This document shows positions 1-63,411 of a DNA stretch of 64,000 nucleotides, piece by piece; position 1 is the stretch's first letter, and each line of letters opens with the position of its first letter. The notes beneath the pieces are model-generated. The model searched no databases. It worked only from the letters and a program-made list of their open reading frames with translations, and was not told the origin of the DNA. Made by a program: the position numbers and the translations under genes. This DNA is from Muricea muricata (taxonomy: Eukaryota > Cnidaria > Anthozoa > Malacalcyonacea > Plexauridae): NCBI GenBank assembly GCA_963855995.1, contig OY979717.1:22233906-22297905 (forward strand), in the 5' to 3' direction.

Positions 1-308
1 GTAAGCAAGTTCGTTTACTACTTCCTCACCCTGCACAATAGTACCCTCGTGGCGCAATGGATCATCGCGTTGGACTTCTAATTCAAAGGTTGTGGGTTCG
101 AGTCCCATCGAGGGTGGTATAATCTTTAAATTTTTACATCGGGAAAAATTTAGACATTAGGTTTAATAAAGTATAAGATTCTGCACATTTTTTGCATTCT
201 ACGACATTTACGGCTTACAATGCACTAAAAGTTTAAATTATTTTATGATGCAGTAAAATTTTTCCAGTAATCAACTTCGTTTACTACTTCCTCACTCAGC
301 ACGATAGT

Positions 309-382
309 ACCCTCGTGGCGCAATGGATCAGCGCGTTGGACTTCTAATTCAAAGGATGTGGGTTCGAGTCCCATCGAGGGTG
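309..382 (+). tRNA. tRNA-Arg (anticodon TCT), spacer-a copy of the trimer
   Basis: Acceptor ACCCTCG pairs fully with CGAGGGT, and the discriminator is G. D stem is GCGC/GCGC with D loop AATGGATCA, which keeps GG at 18-19 and A at position 20, an arginine identity base in many systems. The anticodon stem closes loop CTTCTAA with U33 and anticodon TCT. The variable region carries an A (GGATG) where most copies have GGTTG. T loop is TTCGAGT. There is no intron. A T6 run follows at 403-408. Confidence 0.85.
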
Positions 383-574
383 CTAGCTTCTTTAATCTTT
401 AATTTTTTCATCAATTTAGACATTAGGTTTAATAAAATAAGCGATTCTGCACATTTTTTGCACTGTACGACATTTACAACTTACAATGCACAGAAAAGTT
501 CATTTATTTTAGGATGCAGTAAAATTTTTCCTATAAAAAAGTTCGTTTGCTACTGAATCATTCGCCTGGGCTGT

Positions 575-648
575 ACCCTCGTGGCGCAATGGATCAGCGC
601 GTTGGACTTCTAATTTAAAGGTTGTGGGTTCGACTCCCATCGAGGGTG
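575..648 (+). tRNA. tRNA-Arg (anticodon TCT), spacer-b copy of the trimer
   Basis: Same fold as its neighbours. The 3' anticodon strand is TTTAA, so the stem holds an extra G-U wobble. The T loop reads TTCGACT, which changes box B to GGTTCGACTCC and still fits the consensus. The acceptor is fully paired. The downstream T-run is broken here (AATTTCTATATC), so this copy lacks the nearby T5 terminator that its neighbours have. Weaker or read-through termination is an inference. Confidence 0.8.
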
Positions 649-847
649 GCACAATCCTTAAATTTCTATATCAGGATCAATTTAGACATTAGGTTTAATA
701 AAGTATCAGATTCTGCACATTTTTTGCACTCTACGACATTTACAACTTACAATGCACAGAAAAGTTCATTTATTTTAGGATGCAGTAAAATTTTTCCAGT
801 AAGCAAGTTCGTTTACTACTTCCTCACTCTGCACAATAGTACCCTCG

Positions 848-858
848 TGGCGCAATGG
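848..858 (+). promoter_or_regulatory. Internal pol III A box of the consensus tRNA copy
   Basis: TGGCGCAATGG fits the tRNA A-box consensus TRGYNNARNNG at the expected place, positions 8 to 18 of the tRNA. The same 11-mer recurs in most copies. Frequent departures are TGACGC (for example 23675, 50884), TGGCGAAATGG (15151, 24206) and AATTGATC (38511, 39316). Confidence 0.85.
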
Positions 859-892
859 ATCAGCGCGTTGGACTTCTAATTCAAAGGTTGTG

Positions 893-903
893 GGTTCGAG
901 TCC
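893..903 (+). promoter_or_regulatory. Internal pol III B box of the consensus tRNA copy
   Basis: GGTTCGAGTCC is an exact match to the B-box consensus GGTTCGANTCC. It lies about 34 bp after the A box, a normal spacing for an intronless tRNA gene. Most array copies share it. A minority read GGTTCGACTCC or GGTTCCAGTCC. Confidence 0.87.
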
Positions 904-928
904 CATCGAGGGTGGTATAATCTTTAAA

Positions 929-933
929 TTTTT
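929..933 (+). terminator. Candidate pol III terminator (T5)
   Basis: A run of five T on the coding strand begins 15 bp after the tRNA 3' end and is followed by ACATC. An equivalent T5, T6 or longer run occurs at the same place in most spacers, for example T6 at 403-408. Its position suits pol III termination with a short 3' trailer. Confidence 0.65.
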
Positions 934-1372
934 ACATCGGGAAAAATTTAGACATTAGGTTTAATAAAGTATAAGATTCTGCACATTTTTTGCATTCTAC
1001 GACATTTACGGCTTACAATGCACTAAAAGTTTAAATTATTTTATGATGCAGTAAAATTTTTCCAGTAAGCAAGTTCGTTTACTACTTCCTCACTGTGCGC
1101 GATAGTACCCTCGTGGCGCAATGGATCAGCGCGTTGGACTTCTAATTCAATTTTTGTGGGTTCGAGTCCCATTGAGGGTGCTAGCTTCTTTAATCTTTAA
1201 TTTTTTCATCAATTTAGACATTAGGTTTAATAAAATAAGCGATTCTGCACATTTTTTGCCCGGTACGACATTTACAACTTACAATGCACAGAAAAGTTCA
1301 TTTATTTTAGGATGCAGTAATATTTTTCCGATAAGCAAGTTCGTTTACTACTGAATCACTCTGCAGAATAGT

Positions 1373-1446
1373 GCCATCGTGGCGCAATGGGTCAGCGCGT
1401 TGGACGCCTAATTCACAGGTTGTGGGTTCGAGTCCCATCGAGGGTG
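1373..1446 (+). tRNA. tRNA-like, CCT-type variant (reads Arg CCT, G33)
   Basis: Acceptor GCCATCG faces CGAGGGT, so it has a mismatch at pair 4. The loop is CGCCTAA. By position the anticodon is CCT, but base 33 is G instead of the near-universal U. The anticodon stem TTGGA/TTCAC has a mismatched first pair. About 34 copies share this loop, at 1373, 6163, 6702, 8831, 12295, 15416, 17816, 20205, 23402, 26074, 27416, 29547, 29813, 30343, 34411, 34683, 37176, 38777, 43937, 45538, 49275, 50611, 51416, 52487, 53558, 54357, 55161, 56232, 57037, 58108, 59163, 59960, 60765 and 61715. Most end TCCTATCGGGGGAGG, which also mispairs the acceptor. These look like a degenerate pseudo-tRNA subfamily carried along by the array. 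Confidence 0.7.
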
Positions 1447-14340: not shown

Positions 14341-14381
14341 ATGCACAGAAAAGTTCATTTATTTTAGGATGCAGTAAAACT

Positions 14382-30743: not shown

Positions 30744-30761
30744 TCATAACTGATTGGGGAT

Positions 30762-32394: not shown

Positions 32395-32424
32395 AATAAA
32401 ACGATCTATCTATCTATCTATCTA
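32395..32424 (+). repeat. Polyadenylation-like signal and (TCTA)n tail of the retrotransposon
   Basis: AATAAA at 32,395-32,400 is followed at once by CG and then about five TCTA/ATCT units, ending where the satellite spacer resumes. The microsatellite marks the element's 3' end and confirms plus-strand orientation. Confidence 0.85.
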
Positions 32425-35329
32425 AAGTATCAGATTCTACACATTTTTTGCACTCTACGACATTTACGACTAACAATGCACAAAAAATTTAAATTATTTT
32501 ATGATGCAGTAAGATTTTTCCAGTAAGCAAGTTCGTTTACTACTGAATCACTCGCCACAATAGTACCCTCGTGGCGCAATGGATCAGCGCGTTGGACTTC
32601 TAATTCAAAGGCTGTGGGTTCGAGTCCCAACGAGGGTGATAGCTTCTTTTATGTTTAATTTTTTCATCAATTTAGACATTAGGTTTAATAAAACAAGCGA
32701 TTCTGCACATTTTTTGCACTGTACGACATTTACAACTTACAATGCACCGAAAAGTTCATTTATTTTAGGATGCAGTAAAATTTTTCCTATAAAAAAGTTC
32801 GTTTGCTATTGAATCTTTCGCCTTGGCAGTACCCTGGTGGCGCAATGGATCAGGGCGTTGGACTTCTAATTCAAAGGTTGTGGGTTCGATTCCCATCGAG
32901 GGTGGTATCATCTTAAAATTTTTACATCAGGATCAATTTAGACATTAGGTTTAATAAAGTATCAGATTCTTCACATTTTTTGCACTCTACGAGATTTACA
33001 ACTTACAATGCACAGAAAAGTTCATTTATTTTAGGATGCAGTAAAATTTTTCCAATAAAAAAGTTCGTTTGCTACTGAATCACTCACCTGGGCAGTACCC
33101 TCGTGGCGCAATGGAACAGCGCGTTGGACTTCTAAATCAAAGGTTGTATGTTCGACTCTTATCGAAGGTGGTAGATTCTTTATTCTTTAAATTTTTACAT
33201 CCGGATCAATTTAGACATTGGGTGTAATAAAGTATCAGAATCTGCACATTTTTTACACTCTACGACATTTACGACTTACAATGCACAAAAAATTTAAATC
33301 ATTGTAGGATGCAGTAAAGTTTTTCCACTAGGCATGTTCATTCAATACTGAAGCATTCAGCACGGCAGTACCCTCGTGGCGCAATCGGTCAGCGCGTTGG
33401 ACTTCTAATTCAAAGGTTGTAGGTTCGAGTTCCATCGAGGGTGGTATAATCTTTAGACATTAGGTTTAATAAAGTATCAGATTCTGCACATTTTTTTCAC
33501 TCTACGACATTTACGACTTACAATGCACAAAAAATTTAAATCATTGTAGGATGCAGTAAAGTTTTTCCACTAGGTAATTTCGTTCAATACTGAAACATTC
33601 AGCACGGAAGTACCCTCGTGGCGAAATGGATCAGCGCGTTGGACTTCTAATTCAAAGGTTGTGGGTTCGAGTCCCATCGAGGGTGGTAGATTCTTTAATC
33701 TTTTGTTTTTTACATCAATTTATACAATAGGTTTAATAAAATAAGCGATTCTGCACATTTTTTGCACTGTACGACATTTACAATTTACAATGCACAGAAT
33801 AGTTCAGTTATTTTAGCATGCAGTAAAATTTTTCCAATAAAAAAGTTCGTTTGCTACTGAATCACTCACCTGGGAGGAACCCTCGCGGCGCAATGGATCA
33901 GTGCGTTGGACTTCTAATTCAAAGGTTGTGGATTCGAGTTTCATCCACGGTGGTATAATCTTTAAATTTTTACATCAGGATCAATTTAGACATTAGGTTT
34001 AATAGAGCATCAGATTCTGCACATTTTTTGCACTCTACCACATTTACGACTTTCAATGCACAAAAAATTTAAATCATTGTAGGATGCAGTAAAGTTTTTC
34101 CACTAGGTAATTTCGTTCAATACTGAAGCATTCAGCACGGCAGTACCCTCGTGGCGCAATGGAACAGCGCGTTGGACTTCTAATTCAAAGAATGTGGCTT
34201 CGAGTCCCATCGAGGGTGGTAGATTCTTTAATGTTTAAATTTTTACATCAATTTATACAATAGGTTTAATGAAATATCAAATTCTAAACATTTTTTCACT
34301 CTACTACATTTACGACTTACAATGCACAAAAAATTTAAATTATTTTATGATGCAGTAATATTTTTCCAATAAGCAAGTCCGTTTACTCCTGAATCACTCG
34401 GCAGAATAGTGCAATCGTGGCGCAATGGGTCAGCGCGTTGGACGCCTAATTCACAGGTTGTGGGTTCGAGTCCTATCGGGGAGGTATATTCTTTATTTTT
34501 TAACTTTTTACATCAGGATAAATTTAGACAATAGGTTTAATAAAGTATCAGATTATGCACATTTTCTTCATTCTACGACATTTACGGCTTACAATGCACT
34601 AAAAATTTAAATTATTTTAAGATGCAGTAATATTTTTCCAATTAGCAAGTCCGTTTACTACTGAATCACTCTGCAGAATAGTGCTACGTGGCGCAATGGG
34701 TCAGCGCGTTGGACGCCTAATTCACAGGTTGTGGGTTCGAGTCCTATCGGGGGAGGTATATTCTTTATTTTTTAATTTTTTACATCCGGATAAATTTAGA
34801 CAATAGGTTTAATAAAGTATCAGATTATGCACATGTTCTTCATTCTACGACCATTACGGCTTACAATGCACTAAAAATTTAAATTATTTTATGATGCAGT
34901 AAAATCTTTCCAGTAAGCAAGTTCGTTTACTACTTCCTCACTCTGCACAATCGTACCCTTGTGACGCAATGGATCAGCGCGTTGGACTTCTAATTAAAAG
35001 GTTGTGGGTTCGAGTCCCATTGAGGGTGCTAGCTTCTTCAATGTTTAATTTTTTCATCAATTTAGACATTAGGTTTAATAAAATAAACGATTCTGCGCAT
35101 TTTTTGCACTGTACGACATTTACAACTTACAATGCCCAGAAAAGTTCATTTATTTTAGGATGCAGTAAAATTTTTCCTATAAAAAAGTTCGTGTGCTACT
35201 GAATCTTTCACCTGGGCAGTACCCTAGTGGCGCAATGGATCAGCGCGTTGGACTTCTAATTCAAAGGTTGTGGGTTCGAGTCCCATCGAGGGTGGTAAAG
35301 TATTTAAATTTTTACATCAGGATCAATTT
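32425..35329 (+). repeat. Array block 11: 11 monomers after the retrotransposon
   Basis: tRNA-like units start at 32565, 32831, 33097, 33370, 33612, 33879 (degenerate), 34145, 34411 (CCT type), 34683 (CCT type), 34955 and 35221. The spacing between 33370 and 33612 is 242 bp because the spacer jumps from TATAATC to TTTAGACATTAGG. Unit 34683 begins GCTACGTGGCG, one base short in the acceptor. Units 34411, 34683 and 15416 share the CCT loop with a TTTATTTTTTAA-type T-run after the tRNA. Confidence 0.85.
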
Positions 35330-36316
35330 AGACATTAGGTTTGATAAAGTATCAGATTCTACACATTTTTTGCACTCTACGACATTTACAACTTACAATG
35401 CACAGAAAAGTTCATTTATTTTAGGATCCAGTAAAACTTTTCCAATAAAAAAGTTCGTTTGCTACTGAATCACTCACCTGGCCAGTACCCTCGTGGCGCA
35501 ATGGATCAGCGCGTTGAACTTTTAATTCAAAGGTTGTTGGGTTCGAGTCACATCGAAGGTGGTAGATTCTTTAATCTTTAAATTTTTACATCAATTTATA
35601 CAAGAGGTTTAATAAAATATCAGATTCTAAACATTTTTGCACTCTACGACATTTACGACTTACAATGCACAAAAAATTTAAATTATTTTATGATGCAGTA
35701 AGATTTTTCCAATAAGAAAGTGCGTTTACTACTGAATCACTCTGCCGAATAGTACCATCGTGGCGCAATGGATCAGCGCGTTGGACTTCTGATTCAAAGG
35801 TTGTGGGTTCGACTCCCATCGAGGGTGGTACAATCTTTAAATATTTATATCAGGATCAATTTAGACATTAGGTTTAATAAAGTATCAGATTCTGCACATT
35901 TTTTGCACTCTACGACATTAACAACTTACAATGCACAGAAAAGTTCATTTATTTTAGGATGCAGTAAAATTTTTCCAGCAAGCAAGTTCGTTTACTACTT
36001 CCTCACTCTGCACAATAGTACCCTCGTGGCGCAATGGATCAGCGCGTTCGACTTCTAATTCAAAGGTTGTGGGTTCGAGTCCCATCGAGGGTGGTATAAT
36101 CTTTAAATTTTTACATCGGGAAAAATTTAGACATTAGGTTTAATAAAGTATCAGATTCTGCACATTTTTTGCACTCTACGATATTTACGGCTTACAATGA
36201 TTTACGGCTTATCCTGATGTAAAAAATTAAAAAAAAAATAATATACCTCCCACGATAGGATTTTATTAAACCTATTGTATAAATTGATGTAAAAATTTAA
36301 AGATTAAAGAATCTAC

Positions 36317-36390
36317 CACCCTCGATGGGACTCGAACCCACAACCTTTGAATTAGAAGTCCAACGCGCTGATCCATTGCACCACGAGGGT
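36317..36390 (-). tRNA. tRNA-Arg (TCT) on the minus strand, copy 1 unit 1
   Basis: Read on the minus strand this is a standard copy: acceptor fully paired, loop CTTCTAA, B box GGTTCGAGTCC. Its A box is TGGTGCAATGG, because the plus strand shows CATTGCACCA where other copies have CATTGCGCCA. This makes one D-stem pair a G-U-type change. T-runs follow at its 3' side on the minus strand. Confidence 0.8.
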
Positions 36391-36582
36391 ACTGCCGTGC
36401 TGAATGTTTCAGTATTGAACGAACTTGCCTCGTGGAAAAACTTTACTGCATCCTACAATGATTTAAATTTTTTGTGCATTGTAAGTCGTAAATTTCGTAG
36501 AGTGCAAAAAATGTGCAGAATCTGATACTTTATTAAGCCTAATGTCTAAATTTTTCCTGATGTAAAAATTTAAAGATTATAC

Positions 36583-36656
36583 CACCCTCGATGGGACTCG
36601 AACCCACAACCTTTGAATTAGAAGTCCAACGCGCTGATCCATTGCGCCACGAGGGT
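36583..36656 (-). tRNA. tRNA-Arg (TCT) on the minus strand, copy 1 unit 2
   Basis: A consensus copy in reverse orientation with all stems paired, A box TGGCGCAATGG and B box GGTTCGAGTCC. It is 266 bp from each of its inverted neighbours, so the inversion carried an intact local stretch of array. Confidence 0.83.
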
Positions 36657-36848
36657 ACTATTGTGCAGAGTGAGGAAGTAGTAAACGAAATTTCTTACTG
36701 GAAAATTTTTACTGCATCATAAAATAATTTAAACTTTTAGTGCATTGTAAGCCGTAAATGTCGTAGAATGCAAAAAATGTGCAGAATCTGATACTTTATT
36801 AAACCTAATGTCTAAATTTTTCCCGAAGTAAAAATTTAAAGATTATAC

Positions 36849-36922
36849 CACCCTCGATGGGACTCGAACCCACAACCTTTGAATTAGAAGTCCAACGCGC
36901 TGATCCATTGCGCCACGAGAGT
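36849..36922 (-). tRNA. tRNA-Arg (TCT) on the minus strand, copy 1 unit 3
   Basis: As the preceding inverted copy, except that the acceptor 5' strand on the minus strand is ACTCTCG facing CGAGGGT, giving one mismatched pair. The junction back to plus orientation lies about 50 bp to its right. Confidence 0.8.
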
Positions 36923-37706
36923 ACTATTGTGCAGAGTGAGGAAGTAGTAAACGAACTTGCTTACTGGAAAATTTTCGAAGGTGGTAGATTCTTTAATCTT
37001 TAAATTTTTACATCAATTTATACAATAGGTTTAATAAAATATCAGATTCTAAACATTTTTGCACTCTACGACATTTACGACTTACAATACACAAAAAATT
37101 TAAATTATTTTATGATACAGTAAGATTTTTCCAATAAGCAAGTCCGTTTACTACTGAATCGCTCTGCAGAATAGTACCATCGTGGCGCAATGGATCAGCG
37201 CGTTGGACGCCTAATTAACAGGTTGTGGGTTCGAGTCCCATCGAGGGTGGTACAATCTTTAAATTTTTACATCAGGAGCAATTTAGACATTAGGTTTAAT
37301 AAAGTATCAGATTCTGCACATTTTTTGCACTCTACGACATTTACAACTTACAATGCACAGAAAAGTTCATTTATTTTAGGATGCAGTAAAATTTTTCCAA
37401 TAAAAAACTTCGTTTGCTACTGAATTACTCTCCGGGGCAGTACCCTCGTGGCGCAATGGATCAGCGCGTTGGACTTTTAATTCAAAGGTTGTGGGTTCGA
37501 GTCTCATCGAAGGTGGTAGATTTTTTTACTTTAAATTTTTACATCAATTTATACAATAGGTTTAATAAAATATCAGATTCTAAACACTTTTGCACTCTAC
37601 GACATTTACGACTTACAATGCACAAAAAATTTAAATTATTTTATGATGCAGTAAGATTTTTCCAATACGCTAGTCCGTTTACTACTTAATCACTCTGCAA
37701 AATAGT

Positions 37707-37780
37707 ACCATCGTGGCGCAATGGATCAGCGCGTTGGACAACTAATTCACAGTTTGTGGGTTCGAGTCCTATCGCGGGAG
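37707..37780 (+). tRNA. tRNA-like with loop CAACTAA (reads ACT, A33)
   Basis: A derivative of the CCT-type unit with CA in place of CG at 32-33 and A at 34, so the positional anticodon is ACT. Base 33 is A, the anticodon stem has a mismatch, and the 3' side reads TCCTATCGCGGGAGG. It is almost certainly not functional. Its duplicate is at 44468. Confidence 0.5.
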
Positions 37781-38510
37781 GTAGATTCTTTATTTTTTAA
37801 TTTTTGGCATCGGGATAAATTTAGACAATAGGTTTAATAAAGTATCAGATTCTGCACATTTTCTTCATTCTACGACATTTACGGCTTACAAAACACTAAA
37901 AGTTTAAATTATTTTACGATGCAGGAAAATTTTTCCAGTAAGCAAACTCGATTACTACTTCCTCACTCTGCACAATAGTACCCTCGTGGCGCAATGGATC
38001 AGCGCGTTGGACTTCTATTTCAAAGGTTGTGGGTTCGAGTCCCATCGAGGGTGATAGCTTCTTTAATCTTTAGTTTTTTCATCAATTTAGACATTAGGTT
38101 TAATAAAATAAGCGATTCTGCGTATTTTTTGCACTCTACGACATTTACAACTTACAATGCACAGAAAAGTTCATTTATTTTAGGATGCAGTAAAATTTTT
38201 CTATAAAAAAGTTCGTTTGCTACTGAATCACTCGCCTGGGCAGTACCCTCGTGGCGCAATGGAACAGCGCGTTGGACTTCTAATTCAAAGGTTGTGGGTT
38301 CGAGTCCCATCGAGGGTGGTATAATCTTTAAATTTTTACATCAGGATCAATTTAGACATTAGGTTTAAAAAAGTATCAGATTCTGCACATTTTTTGCACT
38401 CTACGACATTTACAACTTACAATGCACAGAAAAGTTCATTTATTTTAGGATGCAGTAAAATTTTTCCAATAAAAAAGTTCGTTTGCTACTGAATCACTCA
38501 CCTGGGCAGT

Positions 38511-38584
38511 ACCCTCGTGGCGCAATTGATCAGCGCGTTGGACTTGTAATTCAAAGGTTGGGGGTTCGAGTCCCATCGAAGGTG
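38511..38584 (+). tRNA. tRNA-like with Thr anticodon TGT
   Basis: Loop CTTGTAA keeps U33 and gives TGT. The D loop is AATTGATCA, so the first G of the conserved GG pair is lost, and acceptor ACCCTCG faces CGAAGGT with one mismatch. The variable region/T stem reads GGTTGGGGGTTCG. The TGT form also occurs at 39316, 45272, 46077, 54091 and 60499. Only 54091 retains the normal D loop AATGGATCA, and it has one mismatch in its acceptor (CGAGAGT). Confidence 0.65.
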
Positions 38585-41500
38585 GTAGATTGTTTAATCT
38601 TTAAATTTTTACATCAATTTATACAATAGGTTTAATAAAATATCAGATTCTAAACATTTTTGCACTCTACGACATTTACGACTTACAATGCACAAAAAAT
38701 TTAAATTATTTTATGATGTAGTTAGATTTTTCCAATAAGCAAGTCCGTTTACTACTGAATCACTCTGCAGAATAGTACCATCGTGGCGCAATTGATCAGC
38801 GCGTTGGACGCCTAATTCACAGGTTGTGGGTTCGAATCCGATCGGGGGAGGTAGATTTTTTATTGTTTAATTTTTTACATCAGGATAAATTTAGACAATA
38901 GGTTTAATAAAGTATCAGATTCTGCACATTTTCTTCATTCTACGACATTTACGGCTTACAATGCACTAAAAGTTTAAATTATTTTACGATGCAGGAAAAT
39001 TTTTCCAGTAAGCAAGTTCGATTACTACTTCCTCACTCTGCACGATAGTACCCTCGTGGCGCAATGGATCAGCGCGTTGGACTTCTAATTCAAAGGTTGT
39101 GGGTTCGAGTCCCATCGAGGGTGGTATAATCTTTAAATTTTTACATCAGGATCAATTTAGAGATTAGGTTTAAAAAAGTATCAGATTCTGCACATTTTTT
39201 GCACTCTAGGACATTTACAACTTACAATGCACAGAAAAGTTCATTTATTTTAGGATGCAGTAAAATTTTTCCAATAAAAAAGTTCGTTTGCTACTGAATC
39301 ACTCACCTGGGCAGTACCCTCGTGGCGCAATTGATCAGCGCGTTGGACTTGTAATTCAAAGGTTGTGGGTTCGAGTCCCATCGAAGGTGGTAGATTCTTT
39401 AATCTTTAAATTTTTACATCAATTTATACAAGAGGTTTAATAAAATATCAGATTCTAAACATTTTTGCACTCTACGACATTTACGACTTACAATGCACAA
39501 AAAATTTAAATTATTTTATGATGCAGTAAGATTTTTCCAATAAGAAAGTGCGTTTACTACTGAATCACTCTGCCGAATAGTACCATCGTGGCGCAATGGA
39601 TCAGCGCGTTTGACGCTTAATTCACAGGTTGTGGGTTCGAGTCCCATCGGGGGAGGTAGATTCTTTATTTTTTAATTTTTTACATCAGGACAAATTTAGA
39701 AAATAGGTTTAATAAAGTATCAGATTCTGCACATTTTCTTCATTCTACGACATTTACGGCTAACAATGCACTAAAAGTTTAAATTATTTTATGATGCACT
39801 AAAATTTTTCCAGTAAGCAAGTTCGTTTATTACTTCCTCACTCTGCACGATAGTACCCTCGTGGCGCAATGGATCAGCGCGTTGGACTTCTAATTCAAAG
39901 GTTGTGGGTTCGAGTCCCATCGAGGGTGATAGCTTCTTTAATCTTTAAATTTTTCATCATTTTAGACATTAGGTTTAATAAAATAAGCGATTCTGCGTAT
40001 TTTTTGCACTGTACGACATTTACAACTTACAATGCACAGAAAAGTCTATTTATTTTAGGATGCAGTAAAATTTTTCCTATAAAAAAGTTCGTTTGCTACT
40101 GAATCATTCGCCTCGGGAGTACTCTCGTGGCGCAATGGATCAGCGCGTTGGACTTCTAATTCAAAGGTTGTGGGTTCGACTCCCATCGAGGGTGGTACAA
40201 TCTTTAAATTTTTATATCAGGATCAATTTAGACATTAGGTTTAATAAAGTATCAGATTCTGCACATTTTTTGCACTCTACGACATTAACAACTTACAATG
40301 CACAGAAAAGTTCATTTATTTTAGGATGCAGTAAAATTTTTCCAGTAAGCAAGTTCGTTTACTACTTCCTCACTCTGCACAATAGTACCCTCGTGGCGCA
40401 ATGGATCAGCGCGTTGGACTTCTAATTCAAAGGTTGTGGGTTCGAGTCCCATCGAGGGTGGTATAATCTTGAAATTTTTACATCGGGAAAAATTTAGACA
40501 TTAGGTTTAATAAAGTATCAGATTCTGCACATTTTTTGCACTCTACGATATTTACGGCTTACAATGCACTAAAAGTTTAAATTATTTTATGATGCAGTAA
40601 AATTTTTCCAGTAAGCAAGTTCGTTTACTACTTCCTCACTCTGCACGATAGTATCCTCGTGGCGCAATGGATCAGCGCGTTGGACTTCTAATTCAAAGGT
40701 TGTGGGTTCGAGTCCCATCGAGGGTGCTAGCTTCTTTAATCTTTAATTTTTTATCAATTTAGACATTAGGTTTAATAAAATAAGCGATTCGGCACATTTT
40801 TTGCACTGTACGACATTTACAACTTACAATGCACAGAAAAGTTCATTTATTTTAGGATGCCGTAAAATTTTTCCTATAAAAAAGTTCGTTTGCTACTGAA
40901 TCATTCGCCTGGGCTGTACCCTCGTGGCGCAATGGATCAGCGCGTTGGACTTCTAATTCAAAGGTTGTGGGTTCGACTCCCATCGAGGGTGGCACAATCT
41001 TTAAATTTTTATATCAGGATCAATTTAGACATTAGGTTTAATAAAGTAGCAGATACTGCACATTTTTTGCACTCTACGACATTTACAACTTACAATGCAC
41101 AGAAAAGTTCATTTATTTTAGGATGCAGTAAAAATTTTCCAGTAAGCAAGTTCGTTTACTACTTCCTCACTCTGCACAATAGTACCCTCGTGGCGCAATG
41201 GATCAGCGCGTTGGACTTCTAATTCAAAGGTTGTGGGTTCGAGTCCCATCGAGGGTGGTATAATCTTTAAATTTTTACTTCGGGAAAAATTTAAACATTA
41301 GGTTTAATAAAGTATCAGATTCTGCACATTTTTTGCATTCTACGACATTTACGGCTTACAATGCACTAAAAGTTTAAATTATTTTATGATGCAGTAAAAA
41401 TTTTCCAGTAAGCAAGTTCGTTTACTACTTCCTCACTCTGCACAATAGTACCCTCGTGGCGCAATGGATCAGCGCGTTGGACTTCTAATTCAAAGGTTGT

Positions 41501-43077
41501 GGGTTCGAGTCCCATCGAGGGTGGTATAATCATTAAATTTTTACTTCGGGAAAAATTTAAACATTAGGTTTAATAAAGTATCAGATTCTGCACATTTTTT
41601 GCATTCTACGACATTTACGGCTTACAATGCACTAAAAGTTTAAATTATTTTATGATGCAGTAAAATTTTTCCAGTAAGCAAGTTCCTTTACTACTTCCTC
41701 ACTCTGCACGATAGTACCCTCGTGGCGCAATGGATGAGCGCGTTGGACTTCTAATTCAATGGTTGTGGGTTCGAGTCCCATCGAGAGTGCTAGCTTCTTT
41801 AATCTTTAATTTTTTCATCAATTTAGACATTAGGTTTAATAAAATAAGCGATTCTGCACATTTTTTGCACTGTACGACATTTACAACTTACAATGCACAG
41901 AAAATTTCATTTTTTTTAGGATGCAGTAAAATTTTTCCTATAAAAAAGTTCGTTTGCTACTGAATCATTCGCCTGGGCTCTATCCTCGTGGCGCAATGGA
42001 TCAGCGCGTTGGACTTCTAATTCAAAGGTTGTGGGTTCGACTCCCATCGAGGGTGGCACAATCTTTAAATTTTTATATCAGGATCAATTTAGACATTAGG
42101 TTTGATAAAGTATCAGATTCTACACATTTTTTGCACTCTACGACATTTACAACTTACAATGCACAGAAAAGTTCATTTATTTTAGGATCCAGTAAAACTT
42201 TTCCAATAAAAAAGTTCGTTTGCTACTGAATCACTCACCTGGCCAGTACCCTCGTGGCGCAATGGATCAGCGCGTTGAACTTTTAATTCAAAGGTTGTTG
42301 GGTTCGAGTCACATCGAAGGTGGTAGATTCTTTAATCTTTAAATTTTTACATCAATTTATACAAGAGGTTTAATAAAATATCAGATTCTAAACATTTTTG
42401 CACTCTACGACATTTACGACTTACAATGCACAAAAAATTTAAATTATTTTATGATGCAGTAAGATTTTTCCAATAAGAAAGTGCGTTTACTACTGAATCA
42501 CTCTGCCGAATAGTACCATCGTGGCGCAATGGATCAGCGCGTTGGACTTCTGATTCAAAGGTTGTGGGTTCGACTCCCATCGAGGGTGGTACAATCTTTA
42601 AATATTTATATCAGGATCAATTTAGACATTAGGTTTAATAAAGTATCAGATTCTGCACATTTTTTGCACTCTACGACATTAACAACTTACAATGCACAGA
42701 AAAGTTCATTTATTTTAGGATGCAGTAAAATTTTTCCAGCAAGGAAGTTCGTTTACTACTTCCTCACTCTGCACAATAGTACCCTCGTGGCGCAATGGAT
42801 CAGCGCGTTCGACTTCTAATTCAAAGGTTGTGGGTTCGAGTCCCATCGAGGGTGGTATAATCTTTAAATTTTTACATCGGGAAAAATTTAGACATTAGGT
42901 TTAATAAAGTATCAGATTCTGCACATTTTTTGCACTCTACGATATTTACGGCTTACAATGATTTACGGCTTATCCTGATGTAAAAAATTAAAAAAAAAAT
43001 AATATACCTCCCACGATAGGATTTTATTAAACCTATTGTATAAACTGATGTAAAAATTTAAAGATTAAAGAATCTAC

Positions 43078-43151
43078 CACCCTCGATGGGACTCGAACCC
43101 ACAACCTTTGAATTAGAAGTCCAACGCGCTGATCCATTGCACCACGAGGGT
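43078..43151 (-). tRNA. tRNA-Arg (TCT) on the minus strand, copy 2 unit 1
   Basis: Sequence duplicate of the unit at 36317-36390, including the A-box variant TGGTGCAATGG. Confidence 0.8.
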
Positions 43152-43343
43152 ACTGCCGTGCTGAATGTTTCAGTATTGAACGAACTTGCCTCGTGGAAAA
43201 ACTTTACTGCATCCTACAATGATTTAAATTTTTTGTGCATTGTAAGTCGTAAATTTCGTAGAGTGCAAAAAATGTGCAGAATCTGATACTTTATTAAGCC
43301 TAATGTCTAAATTTTTCCTGATGTAAAAATTTAAAGATTATAC

Positions 43344-43417
43344 CACCCTCGATGGGACTCGAACCCACAACCTTTGAATTAGAAGTCCAACGCGCTGATC
43401 CATTGCGCCACGAGGGT
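43344..43417 (-). tRNA. tRNA-Arg (TCT) on the minus strand, copy 2 unit 2
   Basis: Sequence duplicate of the consensus inverted unit at 36583-36656. Stems and both internal boxes are intact. Confidence 0.83.
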
Positions 43418-43609
43418 ACTATTGTGCAGAGTGAGGAAGTAGTAAACGAAATTTCTTACTGGAAAATTTTTACTGCATCATAAAATAATTTAAACTTTTA
43501 GTGCATTGTAAGCCGTAAATGTCGTAGAATGCAAAAAATGTGCAGAATCTGATACTTTATTAAACCTAATGTCTAAATTTTTCCCGAAGTAAAAATTTAA
43601 AGATTATAC

Positions 43610-43683
43610 CACCCTCGATGGGACTCGAACCCACAACCTTTGAATTAGAAGTCCAACGCGCTGATCCATTGCGCCACGAGAGT
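43610..43683 (-). tRNA. tRNA-Arg (TCT) on the minus strand, copy 2 unit 3
   Basis: Sequence duplicate of the unit at 36849-36922, with the same single acceptor mismatch (ACTCTCG). Confidence 0.8.
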
Positions 43684-46600
43684 ACTATTGTGCAGAGTGA
43701 GGAAGTAGTAAACGAACTTGCTTACTGGAAAATTTTCGAAGGTGGTAGATTCTTTAATCTTTAAATTTTTACATCAATTTATACAATAGGTTTAATAAAA
43801 TATCAGATTCTAAACATTTTTGCACTCTACGACATTTACGACTTACAATACACAAAAAATTTAAATTATTTTATGATACAGTAAGATTTTTCCAATAAGC
43901 AAGTCCGTTTACTACTGAATCGCTCTGCAGAATAGTACCATCGTGGCGCAATGGATCAGCGCGTTGGACGCCTAATTAACAGGTTGTGGGTTCGAGTCCC
44001 ATCGAGGGTGGTACAATCTTTAAATTTTTACATCAGGAGCAATTTAGACATTAGGTTTAATAAAGTATCAGATTCTGCACATTTTTTGCACTCTACGACA
44101 TTTACAACTTACAATGCACAGAAAAGTTCATTTATTTTAGGATGCAGTAAAATTTTTCCAATAAAAAACTTCGTTTGCTACTGAATTACTCTCCGGGGCA
44201 GTACCCTCGTGGCGCAATGGATCAGCGCGTTGGACTTTTAATTGAAAGGTTGTGGGTTCGAGTCTCATCGAAGGTGGTAGATTTTTTTACTTTAAATTTT
44301 TACATCAATTTATACAATAGGTTTAATAAAATATCAGATTCTAAACACTTTTGCACTCTACGACATTTACGACTTACAATGCACAAAAAATTTAAATTAT
44401 TTTATGATGCAGTAAGATTTTTCCAATACGCTAGTCCGTTTACTACTTAATCACTCTGCAAAATAGTACCATCGTGGCGCAATGGATCAGCGCGTTGGAC
44501 AACTAATTCACAGTTTGTGGGTTCGAGTCCTATCGCGGGAGGTAGATTCTTTATTTTTTAATTTTTGGCATCGGGATAAATTTAGACAATAGGTTTAATA
44601 AAGTATCAGATTCTGCACATTTTCTTCATTCTACGACATTTACGGCTTACAAAACACTAAAAGTTTAAATTATTTTACGATGCAGGAAAATTTTTCCAGT
44701 AAGCAAACTCGATTACTACTTCCTCACTCTGCACAATAGTACCCTCGTGGCGCAATGGATCAGCGCGTTGGACTTCTATTTCAAAGGTTGTGGGTTCGAG
44801 TCCCATCGAGGGTGATAGCTTCTTTAATCTTTAGTTTTTTCATCAATTTAGACATTAGGTTTAATAAAATAAGCGATTCTGCGTATTTTTTGCACTCTAC
44901 GACATTTACAACTTACAATGCACAGAAAAGTTCATTTATTTTAGGATGCAGTAAAATTTTTCTATAAAAAAGTTCGTTTGCTACTGAATCACTCGCCTGG
45001 GCAGTACCCTCGTGGCGCAATGGAACAGCGCGTTGGACTTCTAATTCAAAGGTTGTGGGTTCGAGTCCCATCGAGGGTGGTATAATCTTTAAATTTTTAC
45101 ATCAGGATCAATTTAGACATTAGGTTTAAAAAAGTATCAGATTCTGCACATTTTTTGCACTCTACGACATTTACAACTTACAATGCACAGAAAAGTTCAT
45201 TTATTTTAGGATGCAGTAAAATTTTTCCAATAAAAAAGTTCGTTTGCTACTGAATCACTCACCTGGGCAGTACCCTCGTGGCGCAATTGATCAGCGCGTT
45301 GGACTTGTAATTCAAAGGTTGGGGGTTCGAGTCCCATCGAAGGTGGTAGATTGTTTAATCTTTAAATTTTTACATCAATTTATACAATAGGTTTAATAAA
45401 ATATCAGATTCTAAACATTTTTGCACTCTACGACATTTACGACTTACAATGCACAAAAAATTTAAATTATTTTATGATGTAGTTAGATTTTTCCAATAAG
45501 CAAGTCCGTTTACTACTGAATCACTCTGCAGAATAGTACCATCGTGGCGCAATTGATCAGCGCGTTGGACGCCTAATTCACAGGTTGTGGGTTCGAATCC
45601 TATCGGGGGAGGTAGATTTTTTATTGTTTAATTTTTTACATCAGGATAAATTTAGACAATAGGTTTAATAAAGTATCAGATTCTGCACATTTTCTTCATT
45701 CTACGACATTTACGGCTTACAATGCACTAAAAGTTTAAATTATTTTACGATGCAGGAAAATTTTTCCAGTAAGCAAGTTCGATTACTACTTCCTCACTCT
45801 GCACGATAGTACCCTCGTGGCGCAATGGATCAGCGCGTTGGACTTCTAATTCAAAGGTTGTGGGTTCGAGTCCCATCGAGGGTGGTATAATCTTTAAATT
45901 TTTACATCAGGATCAATTTAGAGATTAGGTTTAAAAAAGTATCAGATTCTGCACATTTTTTGCACTCTAGGACATTTACAACTTACAATGCACAGAAAAG
46001 TTCATTTATTTTAGGATGCAGTAAAATTTTTCCAATAAAAAAGTTCGTTTGCTACTGAATCACTCACCTGGGCAGTACCCTCGTGGCGCAACTGATCAGC
46101 GCGTTGGACTTGTAATTCAAAGGTTGTGGGTTCGAGTCCCATCGAAGGTGGTAGATTCTTTAATCTTTAAATTTTTACATCAATTTATACAAGAGGTTTA
46201 ATAAAATATCAGATTCTAAACATTTTTGCACTCTACGACATTTACGACTTACAATGCACAAAAAATTTAAATTATTTTATGATGCAGTAAGATTTTTCCA
46301 ATAAGAAAGTGCGTTTACTACTGAATCACTCTGCCGAATAGTACCATCGTGGCGCAATGGATCAGCGCGTTTGACGCTTAATTCACAGGTTGTGGGTTCG
46401 AGTCCCATCGGGGGAGGTAGATTCTTTATTTTTTAATTTTTTACATCAGGACAAATTTAGAAAATAGGTTTAATAAAGTATCAGATTCTGCACATTTTCT
46501 TCATTCTACGACATTTACGGCTAACAATGCACTAAAAGTTTAAATTATTTTATGATGCACTAAAATTTTTCCAGTAAGCAAGTTCGTTTATTACTTCCTC

Positions 46601-48851
46601 ACTCTGCACGATAGTACCCTCGTGGCGCAATGGATCAGCGCGTTGGACTTCTAATTCAAAGGTTGTGGGTTCGAGTCCCATCGAGGGTGATAGCTTCTTT
46701 AATCTTTAAATTTTTCATCATTTTAGACATTAGGTTTAATAAAATAAGCGATTCTGCGTATTTTTTGCACTGTACGACATTTACAACTTACAATGCACAG
46801 AAAAGTCTATTTATTTTAGGATGCAGTAAAATTTTTCCTATAAAAAAGTTCGTTTGCTACTGAATCATTCGCCTCGGGAGTACTCTCGTGGCGCAATGGA
46901 TCAGCGCGTTGGACTTCTAATTCAAAGGTTGTGGGTTCGACTCCCATCGAGGGTGGTACAATCTTTAAATTTTTATATCAGGATCAATTTAGACATTAGG
47001 TTTAATAAAGTATCAGATTCTGCACATTTTTTGCACTCTACGACATTAACAACTTACAATGCACAGAAAAGTTCATTTATTTTAGGATGCAGTAAAATTT
47101 TTCCAGTAAGCAAGTTCGTTTACTACTTCCTCACTCTGCACAATAGTACCCTCGTGGCGCAATGGATCAGCGCGTTGGACTTCTAATTCAAAGGTTGTGG
47201 GTTCGAGTCCCATCGAGGGTGGTATAATCTTGAAATTTTTACATCGGGAAAAATTTAGACATTAGGTTTAATAAAGTATCAGATTCTGCACATTTTTTGC
47301 ACTCTACGATATTTACGGCTTACAATGCACTAAAAGTTTAAATTATTTTATGATGCAGTAAAATTTTTCCAGTAAGCAAGTTCGTTTACTACTTCCTCAC
47401 TCTGCACGATAGTATCCTCGTGGCGCAATGGATCAGCGCGTTGGACTTCTAATTCAAAGGTTGTGGGTTCGAGTCCCATCGAGGGTGCTAGCTTCTTTAA
47501 TCTTTAATTTTTTATCAATTTAGACATTAGGTTTAATAAAATAAGCGATTCGGCACATTTTTTGCACTGTACGACATTTACAACTTACAATGCACAGAAA
47601 AGTTCATTTATTTTAGGATGCCGTAAAATTTTTCCTATAAAAAAGTTCGTTTGCTACTGAATCATTCGCCTGGGCTGTACCCTCGTGGCGCAATGGATCA
47701 GCGCGTTGGACTTCTAATTCAAAGGTTGTGGGTTCGACTCCCATCGAGGGTGGCACAATCTTTAAATTTTTATATCAGGATCAATTTAGACATTAGGTTT
47801 AATAAAGTAGCAGATACTGCACATTTTTTGCACTCTACGACATTTACAACTTACAATGCACAGAAAAGTTCATTTATTTTAGGATGCAGTAAAAATTTTC
47901 CAGTAAGCAAGTTCGTTTACTACTTCCTCACTCTGCACAATAGTACCCTCGTGGCGCAATGGATCAGCGCGTTGGACTTCTAATTCAAAGGTTGTGGGTT
48001 CGAGTCCCATCGAGGGTGGTATAATCTTTAAATTTTTACTTCGGGAAAAATTTAAACATTAGGTTTAATAAAGTATCAGATTCTGCACATTTTTTGCATT
48101 CTACGACATTTACGGCTTACAATGCACTAAAAGTTTAAATTATTTTATGATGCAGTAAAAATTTTCCAGTAAGCAAGTTCGTTTACTACTTCCTCACTCT
48201 GCACAATAGTACCCTCGTGGCGCAATGGATCAGCGCGTTGGACTTCTAATTCAAAGGTTGTGGGTTCGAGTCCCATCGAGGGTGGTATAATCATTAAATT
48301 TTTACTTCGGGAAAAATTTAAACATTAGGTTTAATAAAGTATCAGATTCTGCACATTTTTTGCATTCTACGACATTTACGGCTTACAATGCACTAAAAGT
48401 TTAAATTATTTTATGATGCAGTAAAATTTTTCCAGTAAGCAAGTTCCTTTACTACTTCCTCACTCTGCACGATAGTACCCTCGTGGCGCAATGGATGAGC
48501 GCGTTGGACTTCTAATTCAATGGTTGTGGGTTCGAGTCCCATCGAGAGTGCTAGCTTCTTTAATCTTTAATTTTTTCATCAATTTAGACATTAGGTTTAA
48601 TAAAATAAGCGATTCTGCACATTTTTTGCACTGTACGACATTTACAACTTACAATGCACAGAAAATTTCATTTTTTTTAGGATGCAGTAAAATTTTTCCT
48701 ATAAAAAAGTTCGTTTGCTACTGAATCATTCGCCTGGGCTCTATCCTCGTGGCGCAATGGATCAGCGCGTTGGACTTCTAATTCAAAGGTTGTGGGTTCG
48801 ACTCCCATCGAGGGTGGCACAATCTTTAAATTTTTATATCAGGATCAATTT

Positions 48852-50339
48852 AGACATTAGGTTTAATAAAGTATCAGATTCTGCACATTTTTTGCACTCT
48901 ACGACATTTACAATTTACAATGCACAGAAAAGTTCATTTATTTTAGGATGCAGTAAAACTTTTCAAATAAAAAAGTTCGTATGCTACTGAATCACTCACC
49001 TGGGCAGAACCCTCGTGGCGCAATGGATCAGTGCGTTGGACTTCTAATTCAAAGGTTGTGGGTTCGAGTCCGATGGACGGTGGTATAATCTTTAAATTTT
49101 TACATCAGGAAAAATTTAGACATTAGGTTTAATAAAGTATCAGATTCTGCACATTTTTTGCACTCTACGACATTTACGACTTACAATGCACAAAAAATTT
49201 AAATCATTGTAGGATGCAGTAAAGTTTTTCCACTAGGTAATTTCGTTCAATACTGAAGCATTCAGCACGGCAGTACCCTCGTGGCGCAATGGATCAGCGC
49301 GTTGGACGCCTAATTCACAGGTTGTGGGTTCGAGTCCTATGGGGGGAGGTATATTCTTTATTTTTTAATTTTTTACATCAGGATAAATTTAGACAATAGG
49401 TTTAATAAAGTATCAGATTCTACACATTTTTTGCACTCTACGACATTTACAACTTACAATGCACCGCAAAGTTCATTTATTTTAGGATGCAGTAAAATTT
49501 TTCATATAAAGAAGTTCTTGTGCTACTGAATCTTTTACCTGGGCAGTACCCTCGTGGCGCAATGGATCAGCGCGTTGGACTTCTAATTCAAAGGTTGTGG
49601 GTTCGATTCCCATCGAGGGTGGTACAATCTTTAAATTTTTACATCAGGATCAATTTAGACATTAGGTTTAATAAAGTATCAGATTCTGCACATTTTTTGC
49701 ACTCTACGACATTTACAACTTACAATGCACAGAAAAGTTCATTTATTTTAAGATGCAGTAAAATATTTCCTATAAAAAAGTTCGTTTGCTACTGAATCAT
49801 TCGCCTGGGCTGTACCCTCGTGGCGCAATGGATCAGCGCGTTGGATTTCTAATTCAAAGGTTGTGGGTTCGACTCCCATCGAGGGTTGCAAAATCTTTAA
49901 ATTTTTATATCAGGATCAATTTAGACATTAGGTTTAATAAAGTATCAGATTCTGCACATTTTTTGCACTCTACGACATTTACAACTTACAATGCACAGAA
50001 AAGTTCATTTATTTTATGATGCAGTAAAGTTTTTCCAGTAAGCAAGTTCGTTTACTACTTCCTCACTCTGCACAATAGTACCCTCGTGGCGCAATGGATC
50101 AGCGCGTTGGACTTCTAATTCAAAGGTTGTGGGTTCGAGTATGATCGAGAGTGGTATAATCTTTAAATTTTTACATCGGGAAAAATTTAGACATTAGGTT
50201 TAATAAAGTATCAGATTCTGCACATTTTTTGCACTCTACGACATTTACGGCTTTAATGCACTAAAAGTTTAAATTATTTTATGATGCAGTAAAATTTTTC
50301 CAGTAAGCAAGTTCGTTTACTACTTCCTTACTCTGCACG
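48852..50339 (+). repeat. Array block 14: 5 monomers between two large duplications
   Basis: tRNA-like units start at 49009, 49275 (CCT loop on an ACCCTCG acceptor), 49548, 49814 and 50080. Unit 49009 ends GTCCGATGGACGGTGG and cannot form the acceptor properly. Unit 50080 has GAGTATGATCGAGAGTGG in the T arm. Unit 49814 has TTGGATTTCTAATTC, with T for C at position 32. Confidence 0.85.
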
Positions 50340-61500: not shown

Positions 61501-61560
61501 TTTTAGGATGCAGTAAAATTTTTCCAATAAAAAAGTTCGTTTGCTATTGAATCACTCACC
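58522..61560 (+). repeat. Array block 17: 11 monomers, related to 37-39 kb
   Basis: tRNA-like units start at 58647 (partial), 58897 (TTT), 59163 (CCT type), 59429, 59694, 59960 (CCT loop), 60233, 60499 (TGT), 60765 (CCT type), 61038 and 61303. Marks such as AATTGATCAGCG, CTTCTATTTCAAAGG and GATGCAGGAAAATT are shared with 37,980-39,130. Several units carry CTCGGGGCGC in place of CTCGTGGCGC, which breaks the A box (59429, 59960). Confidence 0.85.
58647..58704 (+). pseudogene. tRNA-Arg (TCT) with its 5' third replaced by a GC-rich patch
   Basis: After GGGGAGT the sequence reads CCGGGGGTTTGTTGGAC, so the acceptor 5' strand and the whole D arm are replaced by about ten unrelated bases. The unit is 16 bp short. 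Anticodon loop CTTCTAA, the B box and the acceptor 3' strand are normal. There is no A box, so pol III initiation here is unlikely. Confidence 0.8.
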
Positions 61561-61565
61561 TGGGC

Positions 61566-61601
61566 AATACACTAATAATTTTGTAATTACAATAATTTTA
61601 C
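61566..61601. other. tRNA-less monomer junction with a 12-bp palindrome, copy 1
   Basis: Where a tRNA should follow CACCTGGGCA, the sequence is an AT-rich patch of about 36 bp and then the spacer resumes at CACTCTACGACATTTACG. The tRNA and the first part of the spacer, about 130 bp, are missing. The patch contains the perfect palindrome TTGTAATTACAA. A filler insertion at a deletion or a transposon footprint are both possible. Confidence 0.7.
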
Positions 61602-62250
61602 ACTCTACGACATTTACGACTTATAATGCACAAAAAATTTAAATTATTTTATGATGCAGTAAGATTTTTCCAATAAGCAAGTTCGTTTACTACTGAATCA
61701 CTCTGCAGAAGAGTATCATCGTGGCGCAATGGATCAGCGCGTTGGACGCCTAATTCACAGGTTTTAGGTTCGAGTCCCATCGAGGGTGGTAGATTCTTTA
61801 ATATTTAATTTTTTACATCAGGATCAATTTAGACAATAGGTTTAATAAAGTATCAGATTCTGCCCATTTTCTTCATTTTACGACATTTACGGCTTACAAT
61901 GCACTAAAAATTTAAATTATTTTATTATGCAGTAAAATTTTTCCAATAAGCAAGTTCGTTTACTACTTCACCGCTCTGCATAATAGTACCCTCGTGGCGC
62001 AATGGATCAGCGCGTTGGACTTCTAATTCAAAGGTTGTGGGTTCGAGTCCCATCGAGGGTGATAGCTTCTTTAATCATTAAATTTTTTATCAATTTAGAC
62101 ATAAGGTTTAATAAAATAAGCGATTCTGCACATTTTTTGCACTGTACGACATTTACAACTTACAATGCACAGAAAAGTTCATTTATTTTAGGATGCAGTA
62201 AAGTTTTTCCAATAAAAATGTTCGTTTGCTACTGAATCACTCACCTGGGC

Positions 62251-62286
62251 AATACACTAATAATTTTGTAATTACAATAATTTTAC
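62251..62286. other. tRNA-less monomer junction with a 12-bp palindrome, copy 2
   Basis: The same AT-rich patch and the same loss as 685 bp upstream, including TTGTAATTACAA and the downstream variant CTTATAATGCAC. Identical junctions mean one event followed by duplication of this piece of array. Confidence 0.7.
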
Positions 62287-62931
62287 ACTCTACGACATTT
62301 ACGACTTATAATGCACAAAAAATTTAAATTATTTTATGATGCAGTAAGATTTTTCCAATAAGAAAGTTCGTTTACTACTGAATCACTCTCCACAATAGTA
62401 CCCTCGTGGCGCAATTGATCAGCGCGTTGGGCTTCTAATTCAAAGGTTTTGAGTCCGAGTCCCATTGAGGGTGGTAGATTTTTTAATCTTTAAATTTTTA
62501 CATCATGATCAATTTAGACATTAGGTTTAATAAAGTATCAGATTCTGCACATTTTTTGCACCCTACGATATTTACGGCTTACAATGCACAAAAAATTTAA
62601 ATTATTTTAGGAAGCAGAAAAATTTTTCCAATAGGAAGCTAATTTTTTACTGAAACTTTCGCCACGGCTGTACCCTTGTGGCGCAATTGATCAGCGCGTT
62701 GGACTTCTAATTCAAAAGTTTTGGCTTCGACTCCATCGGGGGTGGTAGATTCTTTAATGTTCTTTAAGTCATTGTAGACATTAGGTTTAATAAAATATCA
62801 GATTCTGAACATATTTTGCACTCTACGACATTTACGACTTACAATGGACAGAAAATTTAAATTATTTTAGGATCCAGTAAAAATTTCTAATAGGGAAGTT
62901 CGTTTACTTTTGAATCACTCTGCAGAATAGT

Positions 62932-63005
62932 ACCCTCGTGGCGCAATGGATCAGCGCGTTTGACTTCTAATTCGAAGGTTGTGGGTTCGAGTCCCATCGA
63001 GGGTG
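62932..63005 (+). tRNA. tRNA-Arg (TCT), last well-formed copy before the array edge
   Basis: The acceptor is fully paired and D loop, anticodon loop and B box are intact. The anticodon stem is TTTGA/TTCGA with two weakened pairs. The spacer after it is strongly diverged (GCGCGATTGTTTAATG). An intact tRNA next to decayed spacer is compatible with selection on the tRNA but could also be chance. Confidence 0.75.
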
Positions 63006-63198
63006 CGCGATTGTTTAATGTTTTTAAAATCCATTTAGACAGTACGTTTAATAGAACATCAGATTCAGTATAGTTTTTTCTACCTGCGAGAACTCCGACA
63101 TTCAAAGGCAAAGCACAGAAAATTTAAATTCTTTTTAAAGCTAGAAGTTTTTTCCAATAGGTAAATCCGGTTAATACTAGTTGAAACGCATTTGCATT

Positions 63199-63274
63199 AC
63201 CCTCTTGGCTGAATAGATCAGCGCGTTGGACTATTTTAATTCAAGGGATATGGGTTCGGGTGTCAACGAGTGTG
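63199..63274 (+). pseudogene. Degenerate terminal tRNA-Arg remnant
   Basis: Recognisable by ACCCTCTTGGCTGAATAG, AGCGCGTTGGACT and GGGTTCGGGTGTC. The acceptor no longer pairs (CAACGAGTGTG), the anticodon loop carries extra bases (CTATTTTAATTC) and the B box has a GTGTC ending. It is the outermost tRNA-like unit on this side. Confidence 0.75.
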
Positions 63275-63382
63275 TGTGGGATTTTTTAAAAGAACATCAG
63301 ATTCTGAGAATTTTTCCATCTGGCAGACATTCAATATTCAATGCACCAGAAAAATTATATTCTTCAAAAAGCCAAAATTTTT

Positions 63383-63411
63383 GTGTCACAAGTTTTATCG
63401 CACTGTGACAC
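63383..63411. repeat. Perfect 8-bp inverted repeat at the array/unique junction
   Basis: GTGTCACA at 63,383-63,390 and its reverse complement TGTGACAC at 63,404-63,411 enclose a 13-bp loop. It sits where satellite similarity fades out. It could be a transposon terminal fragment, a small hairpin or chance. Confidence 0.5.

Follow-up and report, generated by a model that had tools for sequence, protein, structure and literature searches.

A tandem array of tRNA-Arg(TCT)-like genes in the genome of the octocoral Muricea muricata

Architecture of the array

The stretch of DNA analysed here, referred to as the window, comprises 64,000 bp of the genome of Muricea muricata, a host whose mitochondrial contig places it among the octocorals. 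By the monomer profile a 266-bp unit containing a tRNA-Arg(TCT)-like gene recurs in the window 236 times, and 223 of these copies are near-full. The copies together cover 61,180 of the 64,000 bp and the last of them ends at 63,369, in good agreement with the original prediction of about 230 copies ending at 63,390. ARAGORN finds 201 tRNA genes, the Rfam model RF00005 gives 222 matches that exceed its gathering score and reach up to 69.2 bits, and TRF, which had been suggested as a check, returns a period of 266 bp with 229.1 copies over positions 2-61557, bearing out the proposal of a genuine tRNA-gene satellite of 266-bp units in an animal. The features of the window are listed below.

1-30,743, plus strand: left part of the tRNA-Arg(TCT) array, which continues about 65 kb upstream (ARAGORN, TRF, RF00005, monomer profile)
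841-914, plus strand: example of a monomer tRNA-Arg(TCT) gene (67.8 bits)
30,744-32,422, plus strand: non-LTR retroelement fragment inside the array, with a TATC-repeat tail and two ORF pieces, of which the first carries RVT_1 (PF00078, 2.8e-10)
32,423-63,369, plus strand: right part of the tRNA-Arg(TCT) array, the final copies degenerate (monomer profile)
34,751-42,376, plus strand: duplicated 7.6-kb block, its copy lying at 41,512-49,137 (offset 6,761; 98.4% identical)
36,260-36,967, minus strand: three inverted monomers, two near-full and one partial (ARAGORN, monomer profile)
43,022-43,728, minus strand: duplicate of the inverted monomer trio, at an offset of about 6,761 bp, roughly that of the 7.6-kb block

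The window represents the downstream half of a tRNA-Arg array that spans 128.6 kb in total (C2:22,168,664-22,297,274), begins about 65 kb upstream of window position 1 and contains 487 monomer-profile matches, 455 of them near-full, with diverged copies at both edges. Its units lie nearly all head to tail, and since only six of the 236 copies in the window are inverted, in the two blocks listed above, the earlier description of an array in nearly one orientation stands. With tandem tRNA units that share a similar spacer and a near-constant period, the array has the features of the cnidarian or Entamoeba type. The sole gap of more than 200 bp in monomer coverage of the window is the 1,679-bp retroelement insertion (30,744-32,423). 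An offset scan, but not self-megablast, revealed duplicated multi-unit blocks of 2-7.6 kb, and the 7.6-kb duplicate is evidence for block amplification of the array.

Integrity of the copies and constraint between lineages

The assignment of the copies to tRNA-Arg(TCT) holds for 336 of 440 core copies and fails for the rest, which carry CCT (55), TTT (30) or another or no anticodon (19). Intact copies, defined by all 21 stem pairs, U33-TCT and no gap, number 188 of the 440, whereas 500 nulls derived from spacer variants yield 4.8 on average and 78 at most; folding of the tRNA has been kept far beyond expectation from spacer divergence. Retention of the anticodon alone lies inside the null range (152 of the 500 nulls reach it). 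The A and B boxes are sound in most copies, and a run of four or more T residues follows the tRNA within 80 nt on its 3' side in all 440 and within 40 nt in 409, compared with 75% and 52%, respectively, of random array windows. The cloverleaf pairs, U33, TCT anticodon and terminator of a functional tRNA-Arg(UCU) gene are all found in the array, although 252 core copies fail in at least one such respect. Such a T run also occurs inside the tRNA in 38 core copies, 30 of them TTT copies, where it is a possible premature terminator. CpGs are mostly retained at six sites in the tRNA and also at two of three spacer sites; CpG decay was dropped as a sign of silencing, this pattern being uninformative.

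Comparison of monomer lineages shows that the tRNA is conserved between them, except in those with a broken anticodon loop. Among seven U33-TCT subfamilies, 3 of 69 tRNA sites are variable versus 64 of 192 in the spacer (Fisher p=3e-7), and their least variable 73-nt monomer windows start at the tRNA or no more than 2 nt from it; in four U33G ('GCCT') subfamilies the corresponding counts are 9 of 69 and 40 of 192 (p=0.21). Across 334 TCT copies, pi is 0.049 for tRNA sites outside the boxes and 0.048 for the boxes, against 0.156 for the spacer. Singleton variants are no sparser in the tRNA, at 0.548 per site, than in the spacer, at 0.449, so that no present constraint is visible on single copies. 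In the U33G lineages 12 of 13 changed tRNA positions fall outside the A and B boxes, where about nine would be expected by chance, and across all variants the boxes do not differ in conservation (2.22 vs 2.20 variant alleles per site). A solo gene on contig C3 (at 14,465,556) matches the array consensus except at stem pair 5:69, which is C5-G69 in the solo gene and T5-A69 in the array type, a compensated change.

Other tRNA genes in the genome

Five ordinary tRNAs chosen blind (Glu, Gly, iMet, Trp and Phe) all proved to be arrayed or densely clustered, and arrays of Arg-CCT and Lys-TTT were met alongside them. In the arrays sampled, the units carry one, three or five tRNA genes (five in one unit read), and three further arrays are built of multi-gene units; among the isoacceptors looked at, ordinary tRNAs are arrayed or clustered genome-wide, with array units of one to five genes. 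Some of these arrays are hundreds of kb long, they sit well within large contigs, with several each on C1 and C2, and those found span about 0.4% of the assembly. tRNA-SeC is not arrayed. The amplification of a single isoacceptor, which the original prediction took as the peculiarity of this locus, is consequently no peculiarity, and an adaptation of translation specific to AGA can be dropped as unnecessary.

The constraint seen in the Arg-TCT array is not repeated in the Arg-CCT array, where folding is not in excess of the null (63 of 500 nulls reach the observed value) and diversity in the tRNA (0.092) is below that of one flank (0.119) but not of the other (0.075). Across 17 Lys units, tRNA diversity (0.077) falls only a little short of the less diverse flank (0.082, the other being 0.124). 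A spacer element common to the satellites was sought and rejected, blastn between the Arg-TCT, Arg-CCT and Lys spacers giving matches of 9-22 nt only (best E=0.07).

Interpretation and comparison with known tRNA arrays

We consider it probable that the locus is a tandem tRNA-Arg(UCU) gene family, standing beside several other tRNA arrays in an octocoral whose ordinary tRNA genes are organised in the manner of Entamoeba. Judged from its sequence, the array reads as a real tRNA gene family that grew by block duplication and is mostly redundant per copy. RNA polymerase III would transcribe at least some of the approximately 190 intact copies, and their products would serve translation. Unequal exchange would homogenise the array, so that selection would decide which lineages of monomers spread without acting on individual copies, many of which would thereby be free to decay, as the U33G/CCT and TTT lineages may have done.

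An unlikely alternative is a selfish satellite in which the tRNA gene is a mere passenger or promoter. Recombination, perhaps where transcribed tDNA pauses replication forks, would then drive its repeated expansion, and no tRNA product would be needed. The unconstrained fresh mutations, the CCT array with no visible constraint on its tRNA, the length that arrays reach and, suggestively only, the position of the U33G changes outside the boxes are all in its favour; against it, tRNA sites outside the boxes are conserved like the boxes themselves in the 334 TCT copies, which transcription alone would not require.

Doubtful, too, is a rule that would restrict the formation of satellites in this octocoral to genes with internal (A/B-box) pol III promoters: the ordinary tRNAs looked at form them, but tRNA-SeC and, among the matches listed, U6 do not, the latter two having external promoters. 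The pattern suggests that pol III transcription within the unit itself drives tandem expansion while the gene product sets the surviving lineages; if true, those U33G lineages in which the boxes are retained would be driven, non-decoding repeats. The reported U6 arrays of Hydractinia, with no counterpart among the U6 matches listed for M. muricata, argue against the generality of such a rule.

That the array is a structural element built incidentally of tDNA, whether a boundary or a late-replicating or centromere-like satellite, seems very unlikely: a human tRNA tandem repeat is described as binding CTCF (PMC4041453) and the arrays are long and well inside large contigs, but C1 and C2 each carry several, where a chromosome would have a single centromere. 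A tRNA-derived SINE amplified in tandem is hardly credible, for although a tRNA head with an unrelated tail of about 190 bp has a SINE-like outline, the best spacer match in 121.7 kb outside the array is 39 nt (E=0.06; array copies, as positive control, score 300 bits), a whole-genome monomer search by a method that skips common words found no dispersed spacer copy, the array tRNA is nearly identical to the solo gene, and the unrelated Arg-CCT and Lys spacers and the three arrays of multi-gene units also speak against it. False tandem expansion in the assembly is just as improbable despite the blocks 98% identical, as a looped assembly would yield identical units, whereas the 455 aligned units include 359 distinct ones and adjacent units are only 0.85 alike, against a median nearest-relative identity of 0.992; the exact copy number in the assembly may be off.

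The tandem tRNA gene family favoured here has several published counterparts. Entamoeba, named in the original prediction, is an apt comparison, being described as having distinct units of one to five tRNA genes, ordinary tRNAs in arrays and some dispersed low-copy genes (PMC2652664). M. muricata differs in being an animal, in the lack of short tandem repeats in one Glu-Gly sample run through TRF (L030), in the clear pseudogene lineages of its Arg array and in the share of the genome involved, given as more than 10% for the E. histolytica arrays. Maize has a tRNA-containing satellite of similar size, tRNASAT_ZM, in a plant and with one array named, of 91.95 kb on chr4L (PMC10335936). The human VNTR at 1q23.3 is likewise a tandem tRNA repeat in an animal, with 7.3-kb units in 9-43 copies per allele (PMC4041453).

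Within the cnidarians such arrangements have been published before from two other genera, with tandem arrays of tRNA and ncRNA genes in Hydractinia and tRNA arrays in Nematostella (PMC11067881; PMC2888827), and the authors of the 2024 Hydractinia paper state that they found RNA tandem arrays in no further cnidarian genome (PMC11067881). The passages on these arrays in both papers describe no selection test on the units, in contrast to the comparison of lineages made here. As far as literature searches reach, the octocoral case and the lineage contrast are new. The octocoral joins a hydrozoan and a sea anemone as a carrier of tRNA arrays, which may thus be an ancient cnidarian feature, and the contrast between lineages whose anticodon loop is sound and those in which it is broken offers a way to study how selection perceives a gene of hundreds of copies.

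Extent and growth of the tRNA-Arg(TCT) array

The assembly comprises 453 Mb in 74 contigs, and the tRNA-Arg(TCT) array occupies C2:22,168,664-22,297,274, where a profile built from 14 monomers identifies 487 copies, 455 of them near-full length. The window, C2:22,233,906-22,297,905, holds 236 of these copies (223 near-full; 6 inverted), with 201 tRNA genes called by ARAGORN and 222 by Rfam; within it the array is interrupted once, by a non-LTR element carrying an ORF for reverse transcriptase. Each unit is made up of a 74-nt tRNA-Arg and an AT-rich spacer of about 190 nt. Growth of the array seems to proceed by duplication of multi-unit blocks, since neighbouring units share a mean identity of only 85% whereas a unit and its nearest relative, wherever that lies in the array, share 99.2% (median), there are duplicated blocks of 2-7.6 kb (offset by, for example, 6,761, 10,116 and 7,456 bp), and the most diverged copies are those at both edges. 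Long AT/TA dinucleotide runs lie about 2.2 kb downstream of the array end (L018:1574-2445, an extracted locus). A solo tRNA-Arg(TCT) gene at C3:14,465,556 is one compensated stem pair apart from the array consensus.

Constraint on the tRNA within the array

For most counts 15 edge copies were left out of the 455 near-full units, giving 440 core copies. The anticodon TCT is present in 336 of these, together with U33 in 334, and 188 are intact, which we define as having TCT, U33, all 21 stem pairs and no gap. Under a null in which spacer-column variants were mapped onto the tRNA with copy relatedness preserved, the mean number of intact copies is 4.8 and the maximum 78 in 500 replicates, against the 188 observed; anticodon retention alone is unexceptional, with 152/500 replicates reaching the observed level.

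Clustering of the core copies at 96% identity gave 97 clusters, twelve of which have at least four members: seven are U33-TCT, four carry U33G and CCT, and one reads TTT. Across 69 tRNA sites, from which U33 and the anticodon positions are excluded, the seven U33-TCT clusters are variable at 3, compared with 64 of 192 spacer sites (p=3e-7), and the four U33G/CCT clusters at 9, compared with 40 of 192 (p=0.21), both values being indicative as sites are partly dependent. Variants shared by more than 45 copies are likewise rarer in the tRNA (7, versus 57 in the spacer), a deficit with p=0.0009 (0.007 once CpG sites are removed) when variants in up to 10 copies serve as the yardstick. Singleton variants, however, show no such deficit: the tRNA has 40 in 73 sites and the spacer 84 in 187, which counts against selection on the tRNA. 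Read plainly, these counts point to individual copies being redundant and to mainly sound lineages spreading.

A run of four or more T, a possible pol III terminator, occurs within 80 nt 3' of the tRNA in 440/440 core copies, a figure tempered by the AT-richness of the array, as 75% of random 80-nt array windows also contain one; such runs fall inside the tRNA in 38/440, 30 of which are TTT copies. Two spacer blocks of the window monomer consensus, CTTACAATGCAC and GATGCAGTAA, show conservation equal to that of the tRNA, the latter at about 51-60 bp upstream of the tRNA that follows.

Other tRNA arrays and clusters in the assembly

The queries for Glu, Gly, iMet, Trp and Phe were chosen blind, while Arg-CCT was met via the monomer search and Lys-TTT via an Rfam search, both routes that favour arrays; genome match counts for these other tRNAs are to be read as "at least".

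Further tRNA arrays and clusters (C1, C2 and C11 are contigs)
C2:43,083,416-43,135,801, Arg-CCT array, 544-bp unit, 104 profile matches (66 near-full)
C1:68,263,855-68,744,526, Lys-TTT array, 346-bp unit, Rfam matches
C2:51,793,299-52,396,440, Glu-CTC, Gly-GCC and Glu-TTC array, unit of ~1,046 bp
C1:55,602,366-55,724,246, iMet, Ile-AAT and Asn-GTT array, 1,582-bp unit (one unit read)
C1:58,298,501-58,395,605, Trp array, 27/40 Trp matches, mostly ~3.06 kb apart
C11:8.75-8.96 Mb (11 matches) and C2:55.44-55.61 Mb (29 matches), Phe clusters, best 40 of 922

The spans found total ~1.9 Mb, or 0.4% of the assembly; full-length reading was confined to the two Arg arrays. The Glu-Gly span contains 38 of the best 40 (of 349) Glu matches, the other two being on C3, and 40/40 scored Gly matches (best 40 of 564). 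Of three samples of it, the first has 6 tRNA genes, the second 7 and the third (L037) 4, among which one reads TTT and none is called as Gly. Outside this array, a pair of oppositely oriented tRNA-Glu-like genes separated by 450 bp (G000:C3:48384115-48384629) is the nearest to the human-type query among the matches listed. All 40 scored iMet matches (best 40 of 346) fall in the iMet span. All 40 Trp candidates were scored; the 13 matches outside the array comprise 4 at C1:56.15 Mb, 8 scattered over C1:92.3-93.1 Mb and 1 on C8, and the one Trp unit read also contains Ser-AGA, Ser-CGA, Ser-TGA and Gln-CTG. Phe matches, judged from positions only among the best 40 of 922, are irregularly spaced. 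As controls, the SeC tRNA gave 2 matches on two contigs without an array (2/2 candidates scored), and U6 gave 4, none in an array, among the best 48 of 46,484 first-look candidates.

The Lys-TTT span holds 62/63 scored Rfam matches (best 63 of 55,957 first-look candidates) and, in a second search, 40/40 (best 40 of 127), with a fitted period of 345.7 bp (60/62 matches, two partial ones omitted); five samples totalling 12 kb contain 34 ARAGORN genes, 32 with Lys-TTT. The selection result of the Arg-TCT array is not repeated in the other arrays examined, Arg-CCT and Lys-TTT. In the former, 27/66 near-full units are intact, inside the null (63/500 replicates reach that), and tRNA diversity (0.092) lies between the values of the two flanks; in the latter (17 units) it is 0.077, slightly under the lower flank (flanks 0.124 and 0.082). 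These arrays may be younger, or constraint may be weaker there. The spacer of the Arg-CCT unit (L021-L024) has an internal duplication of 152 bp, 89% identical. Adjoining that array, L020:1522-3230 (C2:43,081,522-43,083,230) carries two ARAGORN tRNA-Phe calls and a third similar stretch recognised by eye, resembling the decayed remains of an old Phe cluster.

The octocoral setting and known tRNA arrays

Octocorals possess mtMutS and a head-to-head COX1/COX2 gene order. In the 19,292-bp mitochondrial contig, C74, COX1 and COX2 lie head to head on opposite strands, and a MutS of 985 aa that includes an HNH domain is encoded as well. COX1 is matched a second time, with one TAA in the match, on a nuclear contig (G000:C1:38414782-38416095), probably a mitochondrial insertion (numt).

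Published work describes 25 array units in Entamoeba histolytica, each holding up to 5 tRNA genes (PMC2652664); Nematostella has more than 17,000 tRNA genes and pseudogenes, with 89% of tDNAs clustered (PMC2888827), and maize has a tRNA satellite of 91.95 kb (PMC10335936). tRNA arrays as such thus have published precedents, whereas searches of the open-access literature brought up none for octocoral nuclear genomes, so the octocoral case is, within that literature, an addition to them.
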